Assembly (NCBI RefSeq): GCF_001267405.1
Contig: NZ_CP012369.1
Coordinates: forward strand, 1 to 64,000
DNA length: 64,000 bases
Origin: Moorella thermoacetica
GTDB taxonomy: Bacteria > Bacillota > DSM-521 > Neomoorellales > Neomoorellaceae
Reading direction: 5' to 3'
Position 1 is the first letter of the stretch, and each line of letters begins with the position of its first letter. The translations under genes and the position numbers were made by a program. Under the pieces are notes generated by a model. The model worked only from the letters and a program-made list of their open reading frames with translations. It made no database searches and was not told the origin of the DNA. This document shows positions 52,101 to 60,555 of the stretch, in pieces.

Positions 52101-52127
52101 AAAACCACCCTGACGGGTGGTTTTTCC
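52101..52127 (+). terminator. terminator after yabE
   Basis: AAAACCACCC (52101-52110) pairs with GGGTGGTTTT (52115-52124), loop TGAC, followed by TTCC and more Ts. Confidence 0.85.
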
Positions 52128-52139
52128 TTTTATAGGTAT

Positions 52140-52168
52140 TTGTACCCCGGGGCCGGGTGTAGTATAAT
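52140..52168 (+). promoter_or_regulatory. ksgA promoter
   Basis: TTGTAC (52140-52145), 17 bases, TATAAT (52163-52168). The -35 coincides with a TTG that opens the longest reading frame, which shows that translation starts later. Confidence 0.65.
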
Positions 52169-52187
52169 AGTTTACGGAGGGATCAGG

Positions 52188-53054
52188 TTGGATTCTGTAG
52201 CCACGCCGGGGAGAACCCTGGCTCTGGTCCGGGAAAAGGGACTGGTCCCGCGCAAATCCCGCGGCCAGAATTTTCTTGTAGACGCCAATATCGTCCGGAA
52301 GATTGCCCGGGCAGCCGAAGTTGGCCCCGGTGATACTGTGGTGGAAATCGGCCCCGGCCTGGGAGCCCTTACCCAGGAACTGGCCGCCAGGGCCGGACTG
52401 GTGATAGCCATAGAAATCGACCGGGAATTGTTTGCTGCTCTGGAAGAAACCCTGGCCGGCAGGGATAACGTTCGCCTGGTTGCCGGTGATGCCCTGAAAG
52501 TCGATTTTGACCGGCTGGTGGCCGGAATTTTAGGGACTGGAGAGGGAAGGTTGCCCACTTATAAGGTTGTGGCTAACCTTCCTTATTATATAACCACGCC
52601 GATCCTGATGCATTTACTAACCAGTAGGTTCCGGATAGCAGAACTAGTTTTAATGGTCCAGGCCGAGGTGGGCTATCGCATGTTGGCCCGGCCTGGAGGA
52701 AAGGACTACGGCGCTCTGAGTGTCGTGGTGCAGTATTATACAGAACCGGCCGTCGTCCTCAAAGTCCCGCGGACGGTATTTTATCCGCGGCCGGAGGTGG
52801 ACTCCCTGGTCCTGAAGCTGACCTGTCGCACCCGGCCGGTGGTACAGGTAGAGGACGAGGACTTCTTTTTCCGGGTAGTCCGGGCTGCCTTTAACCAGCG
52901 GCGCAAGACCATTCTCAATGCCCTGGGGAGTCTGGGCTTTGAGAAATCGAAAATAATGGAGGCCTTAGCGGGGGCCGGTATCGACCCGCGGCGCCGGGGG
53001 GAGACCCTGGGAATGGAGGAATTTGCGAGCATCAGCAGGACACTACAGCACTAA
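52188..53054 (+). CDS. ksgA: 16S rRNA (adenine 1518/1519-N6) dimethyltransferase
   Basis: KsgA dimethylates A1518 and A1519 in the 3' hairpin of 16S rRNA and checks small-subunit assembly. It shows KSRGQNFLVDANIVRKI, SAM motif EIGPGLGALTQELA, IEIDREL, catalytic motif NLPYYITTPILM and the C-terminal NQRRKTILNAL. TTG 52188 is chosen: CGGAGGGATC lies just upstream, and the longer frame to 52140 would begin inside the promoter. 288 residues. Confidence 0.97.
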   Translation: MDSVATPGRTLALVREKGLVPRKSRGQNFLVDANIVRKIARAAEVGPGDTVVEIGPGLGALTQELAARAGLVIAIEIDRELFAALEETLAGRDNVRLVAGDALKVDFDRLVAGILGTGEGRLPTYKVVANLPYYITTPILMHLLTSRFRIAELVLMVQAEVGYRMLARPGGKDYGALSVVVQYYTEPAVVLKVPRTVFYPRPEVDSLVLKLTCRTRPVVQVEDEDFFFRVVRAAFNQRRKTILNALGSLGFEKSKIMEALAGAGIDPRRRGETLGMEEFASISRTLQH

Positions 53055-56629: not shown

Positions 56630-56658
56630 TTGACATTGTCCTTTTTCTGCGGTATAAT
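56630..56658 (+). promoter_or_regulatory. veg promoter, perfect consensus
   Basis: TTGACA (56630-56635), exactly 17 bases, TATAAT (56653-56658). The veg promoter of B. subtilis is likewise a very strong consensus promoter. Confidence 0.85.
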
Positions 56659-56688: not shown

Positions 56689-56964
56689 TTGAATGGAAAG
56701 GAAGTACTGGCTACCATCAGGGAAGACCTCGAAGCCCGCGTCGGGCAGAAGGTTAAGCTACGGGCTAACCGGGGGCGTAAAAAAATCCTGGAACGGACCG
56801 GAGTACTCGAAAAGACTTACCCTAATATCTTTGTTATTCGCCTGGAAGAACAGAAAAGCCCGGAGCGCCGGATTTCCTTTAGCTATACCGATGTTCTTAC
56901 AAATACCGTGGAACTAATGGTAGAAGGAGATTATGGTGACAAAAAGCTCGGGGCCAAGCCTTAG
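56689..56964 (+). CDS. veg: Veg protein
   Basis: A 91-residue protein of the Veg (DUF1021) family, which in B. subtilis stimulates biofilm formation and is expressed strongly. The core VGQKVKLRANRGRKKILERT and FSYTDVLTNTVELM are typical. TTG 56689 follows AGAGGGTGG. It has its own perfect promoter and a terminator, so it is a single-gene unit. Confidence 0.93.
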   Translation: MNGKEVLATIREDLEARVGQKVKLRANRGRKKILERTGVLEKTYPNIFVIRLEEQKSPERRISFSYTDVLTNTVELMVEGDYGDKKLGAKP

Positions 56965-56966
56965 GG

Positions 56967-56994
56967 GGTTACCAGTTATCTGGTGACCTTTTTT
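56967..56994 (+). terminator. terminator after veg
   Basis: GGTTACCAG (56967-56975) pairs with CTGGTGACC (56980-56988), four-base loop, then TTTTTT. Confidence 0.85.
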
Positions 56995-57040
56995 ATTACC
57001 CGGGCCATGGCTTGCCGGGAAAACTGCATACTAAAGTCCG

Positions 57041-57075
57041 CCCCGCCCCATACTAACAAGAGGGGTGGGGTTTTT
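57041..57075 (+). terminator. terminator/attenuator hairpin covering the etfB ribosome-binding site
   Basis: CCCCGCCCC (57041-57049) pairs with GGGGTGGGG (57062-57070) over nine pairs (one G-T), 12-base loop, then TTTTT (57071-57075). The 3' arm is also the only Shine-Dalgarno-like sequence for the TTG start at 57077. The hairpin could stop transcription and hide the ribosome-binding site at once. See the findings. Confidence 0.75.
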
Positions 57076-57076
57076 G

Positions 57077-57886
57077 TTGCAGATGGTAGTATGTGTAAAG
57101 CAGGTACCGGATACGGCTGAGGTGCGCATCAATCCCCGGACCAATACCCTGGTCCGGGCCGGGGTACCGGCAATCATCAATCCCTATGATGCCCACGCCG
57201 TTGAGGCCGCGGTCCAGCTAAAGGAGAAGTACGGCGGCCAGGTGACGGCCCTGTCTATGGGCCCACCCCAGGCGGAAGAAGTCCTGCGCCGGGCCCTGGG
57301 CATGGGGGCTGACCGGGCCATCCTCCTCAGTGACCGGGCCTTCGCTGGTTCCGACACCCTGGCCACCAGCTATATCCTGGCTGCAGCTATCAGGGCCATC
57401 GGCCGGGAGACTCCGGTTGACCTGGTCTTCTGCGGTAAACAGGCCATTGACGGCGACACGGCCCAGGTGGGACCGGGCATTGCCACTCGATTGGGTTTTA
57501 CTCAGCTGACTTACGTTATGGCCATTGACGGGGTGGACCTGGAAAAGGGGCAGATCCAGGTCCAGCGCAAGCTGGAGGGTAAACGGGAGGTTATCCGCGG
57601 CCGCCTACCCGCCTTGCTGACGGTGGTCAAGGATCTCAATGAGCTGCGTTATGCCTCTCTCCCGGCCCTAATCCGGGCCGCCCGGGCCACAATTACCACC
57701 TGGAGTAAAGATGACCTGGACCTCGACCCGGCCTCCATCGGCCTCAAGGGTTCGCCCACTTCCGTCCGGCGCATCTTCGCCCCGCCGGCCCGGCCGGGCG
57801 GGGAGCTCATCCCCGGCGACCCCCGCCAGGCGGCAGCCATCCTGGTAGCCAAACTGGTCCAGACCAAGATTATAGCGGATAAGTAG
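57077..57886 (+). CDS. fixA: electron-transfer flavoprotein beta subunit (FixA)
   Basis: The small subunit of an electron-bifurcating ETF, about 269 residues. It starts MVVCVKQVPDTAEVRI and has ALSMGPPQAEEVLRRALGMG and CGKQAIDGDTAQVGPGIA, the nucleotide-binding region of EtfB/FixA. It heads fixA-fixB-fixC-fixX. In such complexes NADH electrons are split between a quinone and ferredoxin or flavodoxin. TTG 57077 or ATG 57083 may be the start. Its ribosome-binding site lies within a terminator-like hairpin, so expression may be attenuated. Confidence 0.93.
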   Translation: MQMVVCVKQVPDTAEVRINPRTNTLVRAGVPAIINPYDAHAVEAAVQLKEKYGGQVTALSMGPPQAEEVLRRALGMGADRAILLSDRAFAGSDTLATSYILAAAIRAIGRETPVDLVFCGKQAIDGDTAQVGPGIATRLGFTQLTYVMAIDGVDLEKGQIQVQRKLEGKREVIRGRLPALLTVVKDLNELRYASLPALIRAARATITTWSKDDLDLDPASIGLKGSPTSVRRIFAPPARPGGELIPGDPRQAAAILVAKLVQTKIIADK

Positions 57887-57902: not shown

Positions 57903-58928
57903 TTGACTACAGTCTCCAATGCCGAATATCGCGGCGTCTGGGTCTTTATCGAACAGGTGGCCGGCGAACCGGCCCCGGTTTCGTGGGAGCTGCTTGGAGC
58001 CGGCCGACAACTGGCCGATGCCCTGGGAGTCGAACTGGCCGGCGTGCTCCTGGGTCAGGGAGTAGCGGGTCTGGTTAGTGAAGCCTGGGCCTACGGGGCC
58101 GACAGGGTCTACCTGGTGGAAGACCCTGTCCTGGGCCCATATCGTACAGCTCCCTACGCCCGGGCCCTGGTGGAGCTGGTTCAACGCTACCGGCCAGAGA
58201 TACTGCTCCTGGGGGCCACCAGCCTGGGCCGGGATCTCTCCGGGGCCGTGGCCACAGCCCTGGGAACCGGCCTCATGGCCGACTGCACCGGCTTGAATAT
58301 AGACCCCGCAACCCGCCTGCTGGAACAGACCCGGCCGGCCTTTGGCGGCAACGTCATGGCTACCATTCTCTGTCAACGGCATCGGCCCCAGATGGCTACC
58401 GTCCGGCCCCGGGTCATGCCTCTGCCGCCCCGGCAGGAAGGCCGCCAGGGGGAGTTGGTACGGGTAGGAATAGCTTTAAAAGAGGAAGAGGCCCTGGCCA
58501 CGGTCCTTAAGGTTATCGAAGAGAAGGGAAAGGCTATCTACCTCGACCGGGCGGAGATTATCGTTGCCGGCGGCCGGGGACTGGGGTCCAGGGAAAACCT
58601 GCGCCTCCTGGAAGAACTGGCCGGTGTCCTGGGGGGCACCCTGGGGGCTTCCCGGGCGGCAGTAGAAGCCGGCTGGCTGCCACCGGAGTACCAGGTAGGC
58701 CAGACGGGTATTACCGTCCGGCCAAAGGTATATTTCGCCATCGGTATTTCCGGGGCCATCCAGCACCTGATCGGCATGCAGAACTCGGAAGTGATTGTGG
58801 CCATCAACAAGGACCCGGAGGCGCCCATCTTCAAGGTGGCTACCTACGGTATAATTGGCGATTTCCAGGAGGTAGTACCGGCGCTGACGGAGGAGTTCCG
58901 CCGGCAGCTGGCAGCGAGATCCGCCTGA
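57903..58928 (+). CDS. fixB: electron-transfer flavoprotein alpha subunit (FixB)
   Basis: The large ETF subunit, 341 residues. The C-terminal FAD-binding domain is clear: GGRGLGSRENLRLLEELAGV, LGASRAAVEAGWLP, QVGQTGITVRPKVYFAIGIS and GAIQHLIGM. The N-terminal domain resembles other FixB proteins (GVWVFIEQ). Start TTG 57903 follows GAGGAGCTGA by about eight bases. It is 16 bases after fixA. Confidence 0.94.
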   Translation: MTTVSNAEYRGVWVFIEQVAGEPAPVSWELLGAGRQLADALGVELAGVLLGQGVAGLVSEAWAYGADRVYLVEDPVLGPYRTAPYARALVELVQRYRPEILLLGATSLGRDLSGAVATALGTGLMADCTGLNIDPATRLLEQTRPAFGGNVMATILCQRHRPQMATVRPRVMPLPPRQEGRQGELVRVGIALKEEEALATVLKVIEEKGKAIYLDRAEIIVAGGRGLGSRENLRLLEELAGVLGGTLGASRAAVEAGWLPPEYQVGQTGITVRPKVYFAIGISGAIQHLIGMQNSEVIVAINKDPEAPIFKVATYGIIGDFQEVVPALTEEFRRQLAARSA

Positions 58929-58978: not shown

Positions 58979-60277
58979 ATGGCTGAGCGCTTTGAGGTAG
59001 TAGTTGTCGGGGCCGGTCCGGCCGGCCTGGCGGCGGCCCTGACCCTGGCCCGGGCCGGGGTGGAAGTAATTGTCTTTGAGCGTGGAGAACACCCGGGCAG
59101 CAAAAACGTTATGGGTGGCGTCCTCTACCGCCACCCGACAGAAACTGTGGTCCCCGGGTTTTACCACCAGGCTCCCCTGGAACGACCGGTGGTGGAACAG
59201 CGCCTGTGGTTGCTCACCGAGGAGGCGGCCCTGACCCTGGGCTATAAAGATATGGTTTTTGCCGGCGAACCCTTCAATGCCTTTACCGTCCTGCGGGCCC
59301 GTTTTGACCGCTGGCTGGCCGACCAGGCCGTAGCCGCCGGGGCGCTTTTGATCAACGAAACCGTCGTCGAAGACCTCCTGTGGGAAAACGAGCGCGTCAT
59401 CGGGGTACGGACAGGCCGGGAAGGGGGCGATGTGCGGGCGGAAGTGGTTATCCTGGCCGAGGGGGCCAACTCCCTGTTGACCCAGAAGGCCGGGCTGAAA
59501 CCCGACGGCATTAACACCAACCAGCTGGCCGTGGCCGTGAAGGAGATTATTGCCCTGCCCCGGGAAAAAATCGAGGATCGTTTTAACCTGGAAGAGGGCC
59601 AGGGCTGCACCATTGAACTCCTGGGGGAAGCCACCAAGGGGATGCTGGGCACCGCCTTTATCTATACCAATAAGGACTCCCTCTCCGTAGGTGTGGGGGT
59701 CCTCCTGGCGAGCCTGGTGCGCCGCCGCCTGAACCCCAACGACCTCCTGGAGCACCTGAAATCCCACCCCATGGTACGTCCTCTCCTGGCCGGGGGCGAG
59801 AGCAAGGAGTACCAGGGACATCTTATCCCCGAGGGCGGTTACCAGGCTGTTCCTAAACTCTACGGCAACGGCGTCCTGGTAGTCGGGGATGCCGCCATGC
59901 TGGTCAACGGGATTCACCGGGAAGGTTCCAATCTGGCCCTGACCTCCGGCCTGCTGGCAGCCAGGACTATCCTGGCCGCCAGGGAGAAGGGTGACTACAG
60001 TGAAGCCAACCTGGCCCCTTATCGCCAGGCCCTGGAGGAGAGCTTTGTCCTGAAGGACCTGAAGAAATACCAGCGGGCCCCATTTTTCTTCGACCAGAAC
60101 CCCCAATTCTTCACCCTGTACCCCGGCCTCCTCTCCCGGGCCGCCAGGGAGTTTTTAACCGTTGACAACGTCCCCAAGCGTGAGAAGCAGAAGCGGATTT
60201 TGCGGGAGATTATCACCTCCCGCAGCCGTTTCCAGATTGCCCGCGATCTCTATAACCTCTGGAGGGTGATGGGCTGA
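58979..60277 (+). CDS. fixC: FixC, flavoprotein quinone oxidoreductase
   Basis: An ETF:quinone oxidoreductase-like FAD protein, 432 residues. The N-terminal Rossmann motif is VVVGAGPAGLAAALTLARAG with FERGEHPGSKNV; the second FAD motif is VLVVGDAAMLVNGIHREGSN. It receives electrons from FixAB and passes them to quinone. ATG 58979 follows GGAAGGGGTGCGAGG. Its stop overlaps the fixX start as TGATG. Confidence 0.94.
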   Translation: MAERFEVVVVGAGPAGLAAALTLARAGVEVIVFERGEHPGSKNVMGGVLYRHPTETVVPGFYHQAPLERPVVEQRLWLLTEEAALTLGYKDMVFAGEPFNAFTVLRARFDRWLADQAVAAGALLINETVVEDLLWENERVIGVRTGREGGDVRAEVVILAEGANSLLTQKAGLKPDGINTNQLAVAVKEIIALPREKIEDRFNLEEGQGCTIELLGEATKGMLGTAFIYTNKDSLSVGVGVLLASLVRRRLNPNDLLEHLKSHPMVRPLLAGGESKEYQGHLIPEGGYQAVPKLYGNGVLVVGDAAMLVNGIHREGSNLALTSGLLAARTILAAREKGDYSEANLAPYRQALEESFVLKDLKKYQRAPFFFDQNPQFFTLYPGLLSRAAREFLTVDNVPKREKQKRILREIITSRSRFQIARDLYNLWRVMG

Positions 60278-60555
60278 TGCGCCTGGAGGATAAACTCTTT
60301 CTTAATCGTTATCAGACCGACAAACACCCTCACCTGCGCATCAAGGACCGGGAGGTCTGCCGCCACTGCGAGGGCAAACCCTGTACCTTTATCTGCCCGG
60401 CCCGGGTTTACGTCTGGAACGAAAGGGAAGAACGCATCGAGACCGCCTATGAAGGTTGCGTCGAATGCGGCACCTGCCGCTACGGGTGTGCCCATGATAA
60501 CATCGACTGGCGCTATCCCCGCGGCGGTTTCGGTATCTTGTATAAGTATGGTTAA
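60277..60555 (+). CDS. fixX: FixX ferredoxin-like protein
   Basis: A 92-residue iron-sulfur protein that completes FixABCX. Cysteines are arranged as CRHCEGKPCTFICP and CVECGTCRYGC, the FixX pattern. It starts inside the end of fixC, so both are coupled. No terminator is evident right after it. Confidence 0.94.
   Translation: MRLEDKLFLNRYQTDKHPHLRIKDREVCRHCEGKPCTFICPARVYVWNEREERIETAYEGCVECGTCRYGCAHDNIDWRYPRGGFGILYKYG

Follow-up and report, generated by a model that had tools for sequence, protein, structure and literature searches.

A conserved terminator-like hairpin that would mask the Shine-Dalgarno sequence of fixA in Moorella thermoacetica

Introduction

In the model acetogen Moorella, FixABCX (EtfABCX) is thought to connect NADH, ferredoxin and menaquinone, and its transcripts are reported to be lower on methanol than on glucose (log2 -2.5 to -2.2) and about 16-fold higher with DMSO (log2 +3.7 to +4.3) (PMC13391211). 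According to the available portions of PMC13040438, EtfABCX was not differentially expressed on H2+CO2 or CO. The operon found in the 64,000 nucleotides of M. thermoacetica DNA analysed here (the window) would, judging from the species and the gene content, be Mothe_c00620-00650 of the literature. Its layout raises a question: the terminator of the preceding veg gene is followed after 45 bases by a second hairpin, directly before fixA. What is this second hairpin for? The fixA leader is not discussed in the available portions of PMC13391211 or PMC13040438, and a literature search found no paper on it and no Moorella transcription start map. For the control of EtfABCX the hairpin offers an element that is small, precisely positioned and open to experiment, and in it a bacterial operon may combine a terminator, a mask of the Shine-Dalgarno (SD) sequence and a promoter within about 40 bases.

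Results

All features lie on the + strand. The veg gene (56689-56964; matching NCBIfam NF046033 BflmStimVeg at E 6.5e-29, below the curated cut-off of that family) is preceded by a promoter with 12 of 12 consensus matches (TTGACA-17-TATAAT, 56630-56658). As originally predicted, veg has an intrinsic terminator of its own at 56967-56994, with the stem at 56967-56988 and T to 56994; this stem covaries among relatives. The second hairpin consists of a 5' arm with a CCCCRCCCC core (GCCCCGCCCC, 57040-57049), a loop of 12 bases (57050-57061) and a 3' arm (GGGGTGGGGT, 57062-57071), followed by a T tract (57071-57075) and G57076. The TTG start codon of fixA (etfB; 57077-57886) occupies 57077-57079, and fixB (etfA; 57903-58928), fixC (58979-60277) and fixX (60277-60555) follow. 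The original prediction had described a nine-pair GC hairpin with a five-T tail ending one base before the TTG. The position and the five T were correct, but the nine core pairs comprise eight G-C and one G.U.

The folding energy of 57035-57090 was -21.1 kcal/mol, which was not significant against dinucleotide shuffles of the same region (z -1.61; 14 of 200 shuffles as stable). The hairpin was not listed by the terminator scan because its loop exceeds eight bases, the limit of the scan. Each of the nine hairpins found in the family has the form of an intrinsic terminator: a G-C rich stem with 7-13 pairs in an unbroken row, followed directly by no fewer than four T. Their loops of 10-12 bases are long for a terminator. 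We infer that termination occurs here in the cell. Among the 57 ORFs of the window, a terminator-like hairpin adjoined a possible start in three cases, and in one of 57 after the true starts of ksgA and pdaB were read and these two ORFs dropped, a correction applied post hoc, after the hits were known. The terminator before ksgA (52102-52190) lies near a false upstream start, and the likely true TTG is downstream, after GGAGG.

The TTG start of fixA is backed by homology, as the alternative position lacks an ATG in two relatives (G014 and G001), and FixA in other families starts with GTG-CAT/CAC at the aligned codon. The ATG at 57083 is a possible start in this genome. In G010 (L007, about 1500) the conserved TTG is CTG, and an in-frame TTG lies one codon upstream.

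By eye, GGGGTG (57062-57067) in the 3' arm is the only SD-like stretch, as had been claimed; it would form six pairs, one of them G.U, with what we take to be the anti-SD sequence. The 16S 3' end was sought with two patterns and not found, and the growth temperature of Moorella used in the predictions was likewise assumed. In the predicted fold the SD-like stretch is paired inside the stem, and its predicted opening in this genome (G000) at 60°C was 0.002, both in read-through RNA and in RNA that begins close to the base of the stem, but 0.84 in RNA starting at 57061, which lacks the 5' arm. The model thus agrees with the earlier view that a terminator-like stem would also hide the start signal. 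Across the eight genomes that have both the hairpin and an intact fixA, predicted openings were 0.002-0.15 when the 5' arm is present and 0.57-0.98 when it is missing; in G017, which has lost fixA, they were 0.002 and 0.17. Were all mRNA molecules to carry the hairpin, there would be hardly any translation of fixA, and therefore something must free the SD sequence.

Within the 2.53 Mb genome the pattern CCCCNCCCCN{3,15}GGGGNGGGG matched a single site (reversed control, 0), and viral contigs gave no match to the hairpin pattern. A search of Rfam at the hairpin found no family up to E 5. The 18 genomes of the family were then searched with CCCCATAMTAN{3,7}GGGGTGG, which occurred once in each of nine (control, 0): in G000, G001, G002, G004, G005 (the nearest relative in this set), G009 and G010 of Moorella, and in G014 and G017 of the sister genus g5. 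A covariance model gave matches with E <= 1 in 17 of the 18 genomes, with up to 150 candidates scored per genome. The strong ones (E <= 5.3e-4) were the fixA sites of ten genomes, seven of which were training sequences and two of which have fixA decayed (G003) or deleted (G017), together with a match on G007:C93. The latter, and weaker matches at G000:108330 and G003:550030, were rejected as ordinary terminators. Further matches on G002:C17 and G019:C6 both had E about 0.002. A further copy of loop and stem elsewhere in the genome, which might have pointed to a regulon, was found neither by the pattern searches nor by the covariance search with its up to 150 scored candidates per genome.

The persistence of the hairpin among relatives, one of the checks named with the original prediction, was confirmed: it stands at fixA in all seven Moorella genomes with intact fixA (FixA identity 83-100%) and in G014 (74%). 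It is absent from G013 of genus g4, where veg and fixA are present and FixA matches in two pieces (76% and 65%). In other families (L009, L010 and others) fixA has different leaders, several with a clear SD sequence. In G017 fixABCX is deleted and the hairpin persists; a few fixA codons come after it, and after these the tail of fixX. The deletion site lies at 3405-3650 of L137 (G017:C1:129000-138000), from the fixA start to the fixX end. G003 has a slightly damaged copy before its decayed fixA, G008 has lost the 3' arm along with the operon start, and G006 has neither hairpin nor fixA. Loss or breakage of the fix operon has thus occurred on several occasions in the family (G017, G003, G006, G008).

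Genus g5 has a small ORF of about 85 amino acids between veg and the hairpin (L137 3142-3399; also upstream of fixA in L008, from G014), and the hairpin therefore goes with fixA and not with veg. Together with the separate veg terminator, this upholds the claim that veg does not need it. In G014 the frame of the small ORF appears, by eye, to enter the hairpin and stop within the loop.

The kind of conservation was assessed with the veg terminator as a control. MAFFT misaligned the two g5 rows, which have a shorter loop, and stem pairs were counted from typed rows of nine genomes, numbered outward from the loop. Pairs 1-4 of the fix stem were invariant. Pair 5 was A-U in six genomes and G.U in three, pair 6 C-G in six and U.G in three, and pair 7 C-G in eight and U.G in one. 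Pair 8 was broken in one genome and pair 9 in three, while pair 10 was G.U in three, A-U in three, G-C in two and broken in one. The compensatory changes sought as a second check were almost absent: no two-sided change occurred in pairs 1-9 and one at pair 10, against five of eight pairs of the veg terminator in nine genomes. The 5'-arm changes in the core (pairs 5, 6 and 7) are all accommodated by G.U pairs, and the 3' arm with the SD sequence is nearly unchanged; for this reason the 5' arm appears to follow the SD sequence. The rare 3'-arm changes break lower pairs and extend the T tract.

Pairwise identities among the seven Moorella genomes were 88% and 90% for the arms of the fix hairpin and 57% for the 20 bases upstream. 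Loop bases 1-6 (ATACTA) were 95% identical, and bases 7-12, which vary freely, 59%. The arms of the veg terminator had 62% and 58% identity in seven genomes, and its loop 50%. As the fix arms and ATACTA are near-frozen whereas the veg terminator drifts and covaries, the fix hairpin is not merely a spare terminator. Judged from these alignments, its letters themselves are constrained beyond what an ordinary terminator needs, and it probably does more than one. A role as SD sequence would account for the conservation of the 3' arm, and the need to pair with it for that of the 5' arm; the frozen ATACTA requires a separate reason.

Such a reason could be a promoter. CATAMT stands at the loop entry of all nine hairpins (CATACT at 57049-57054 here; the sole variant is CATAAT in G010) and is a candidate -10 box. 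In G013, which has no hairpin, CATACT lies 24 bases before the ATG-aligned codon, the same spacing as in G014 (counted by eye). A YATAYT-like element (57027-57032 here), another possible -10 box, lies 22 bases upstream of the loop element (23 in g5). This candidate loop promoter lacks both a good -35 box and an extended -10, as would-be promoter CATAMT therefore standing alone. Scores in ten genomes, obtained with approximate matrices, were 2.6-8.6 overall, the lowest belonging to the upstream element, and 3.8-8.6 for the loop element; none exceeded 10.4, the 95% level of shuffles, which were made of the G000 region only. A direct repeat CATACTAA at 57027 and 57049 was set aside as an operator: it is complete in G000 and G005 alone, and all that remains in the rest is a YATAYT-like element. 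A sigma-54 promoter seen by eye in GGGGTTTTTTGTTGCA was rejected, since its spacing does not hold in G014 and the RNA would begin within the gene.

Discussion

The reading that we place first, tentatively and without calling it probable, is that the hairpin is a cis-acting gate against incoming transcripts and that the productive mRNA starts inside it. Transcription from the veg side would meet a second terminator at the fix hairpin, and any read-through RNA would fold and hide the fixA SD sequence in the 3' arm. The productive mRNA would start within the hairpin and use CATAMT, where the loop begins, as its -10 box; it would lack the 5' arm and leave the ribosome site free, and the known regulation of the operon would act on this inner start. 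The veg promoter is a perfect consensus, and therefore such a gate has something to stop. The fit of CATAMT to a -10 box, the free variation of the six following bases, the predicted rise in SD opening without the 5' arm and the retention of CATACT in G013 all favor this reading. It is also in line with the failure to find a conserved antiterminator or aptamer in the leaders of relatives or in Rfam. On the other side, the leader of an mRNA starting in the loop would be very short and the SD sequence would lie almost at the 5' end, and the G013 evidence comes from a single genome. The inner start can only be proposed conditionally because promoter scoring does not support it. The original prediction had counted a start downstream of the 5' arm against itself, and such a start now appears to lead the readings.

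By analogy with gene e (lysozyme) of phage T4, an RNA that starts inside the hairpin may be the simplest way to free the SD sequence. In gene e, according to the available portions of PMC3014915, a hairpin masks the SD sequence in transcripts started upstream, and late promoters at the 5' part of the hairpin give a productive transcript without the 5' arm. The fix stem differs in being also terminator-like, with a T tract, and in serving a bacterial metabolic operon, and its inner promoter is putative. As at fix, one helix carries terminator and SD sequence in the rplJL leader of Bacillus subtilis; there, however, the SD sequence, located in the 3' portion of this hairpin, is that of a leader peptide, whereas at fix it is that of the first enzyme gene itself. 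The rplJL leader also possesses antiterminator structures that overlap, together with a known protein, neither of which was found at fix (PMC4538822). The parts of the fixABCX hairpin are known, and their combination is unusual. Expression platforms of riboswitches and attenuators also place a terminator close to a gene start. The fix leader differs from these in having no aptamer, no Rfam match and no conserved leader.

Less likely, though a serious competitor, is that the whole hairpin is part of a regulated mRNA and that a factor, either a protein or an RNA, recognising the ATACTA loop or opening the stem admits RNA polymerase and ribosomes when acceptors such as DMSO are present. The frozen loop sequence would suit this, and so would the terminator form shared by all nine hairpins, each with four T or more, as would the rise of the operon by log2 3.7-4.3 with DMSO and its fall by 2.2-2.5 on methanol in the available portions of PMC13391211, although the DMSO response could equally be promoter-based. 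Against it, there is no antiterminator, no Rfam match and no second copy marking a regulon, and nothing alike at the dms loci: no motif common to the fix leader and the DMSO-induced dms loci was seen in the regions of this genome. A start inside the hairpin is ranked above a factor-opened stem, and no higher, because loop and spacing fit it, but a -35 box and an extended -10 are lacking and the scores lie below the shuffle level.

The reading of the hairpin as terminator and SD mask is reasonable. The antitermination that the original prediction added to it is unsupported, with no conserved upstream partner of either arm in relatives (by eye), no Rfam match, and pairing of loop and gene start only in G000 and G005. 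A pseudoknot of CATACTA in the loop with TAGTATG at the fixA start was rejected as a general feature, as its seven pairs form only in these two genomes (at most five in six others) and 141 and 136 of 2000 synonymous redraws equal it. Loop positions 57049-57058 are complementary to 57084-57093 at the fixA start at nine of ten bases, which among the relatives is kept only in G005.

It is unlikely that the RNA starts at the hairpin base, with YATAYT as -10 box and the hairpin as promoter-proximal attenuator or 5' stabiliser. The element keeps a fixed distance of 22 bases (23 in g5) to the loop element, which would put the +1 at the stem base; yet it has no -35 box, scores no higher than shuffles and overlaps the stop codon of another ORF in G017, and the SD sequence would be buried in every mRNA. 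Somewhat more doubtful still is the specific proposal of an RNA switch read through its loop, in which a factor responding to redox state or to electron acceptors would bind the frozen AUAMUA sequence in this single-copy terminator/SD hairpin and switch the bifurcating complex at transcription and translation together.

A palindromic DNA operator CCCCACCCC-N10-12-GGGGTGGGG, with the RNA hairpin incidental, would account for conservation of the sequence and not only of pairing, and its half sites are about two turns apart. It is improbable, as the 5'-arm changes are all tolerated by an RNA stem (G replacing A opposite U, U replacing C opposite G), the loop length varies from 10 to 12, the T tract is retained and the genome has no second site. 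Least likely of all is an ordinary second veg terminator that overlaps the fixA start by accident: Moorella has similar terminators, such as CCCCAC...GTGGGGTTTTTG behind a gene ending in ITGLF (presumably fhs), but comparable ones have drifting loops and sit well before the next SD sequence, the veg terminator drifts and covaries while the fix hairpin is frozen, and in g5 another ORF separates the hairpin from veg.
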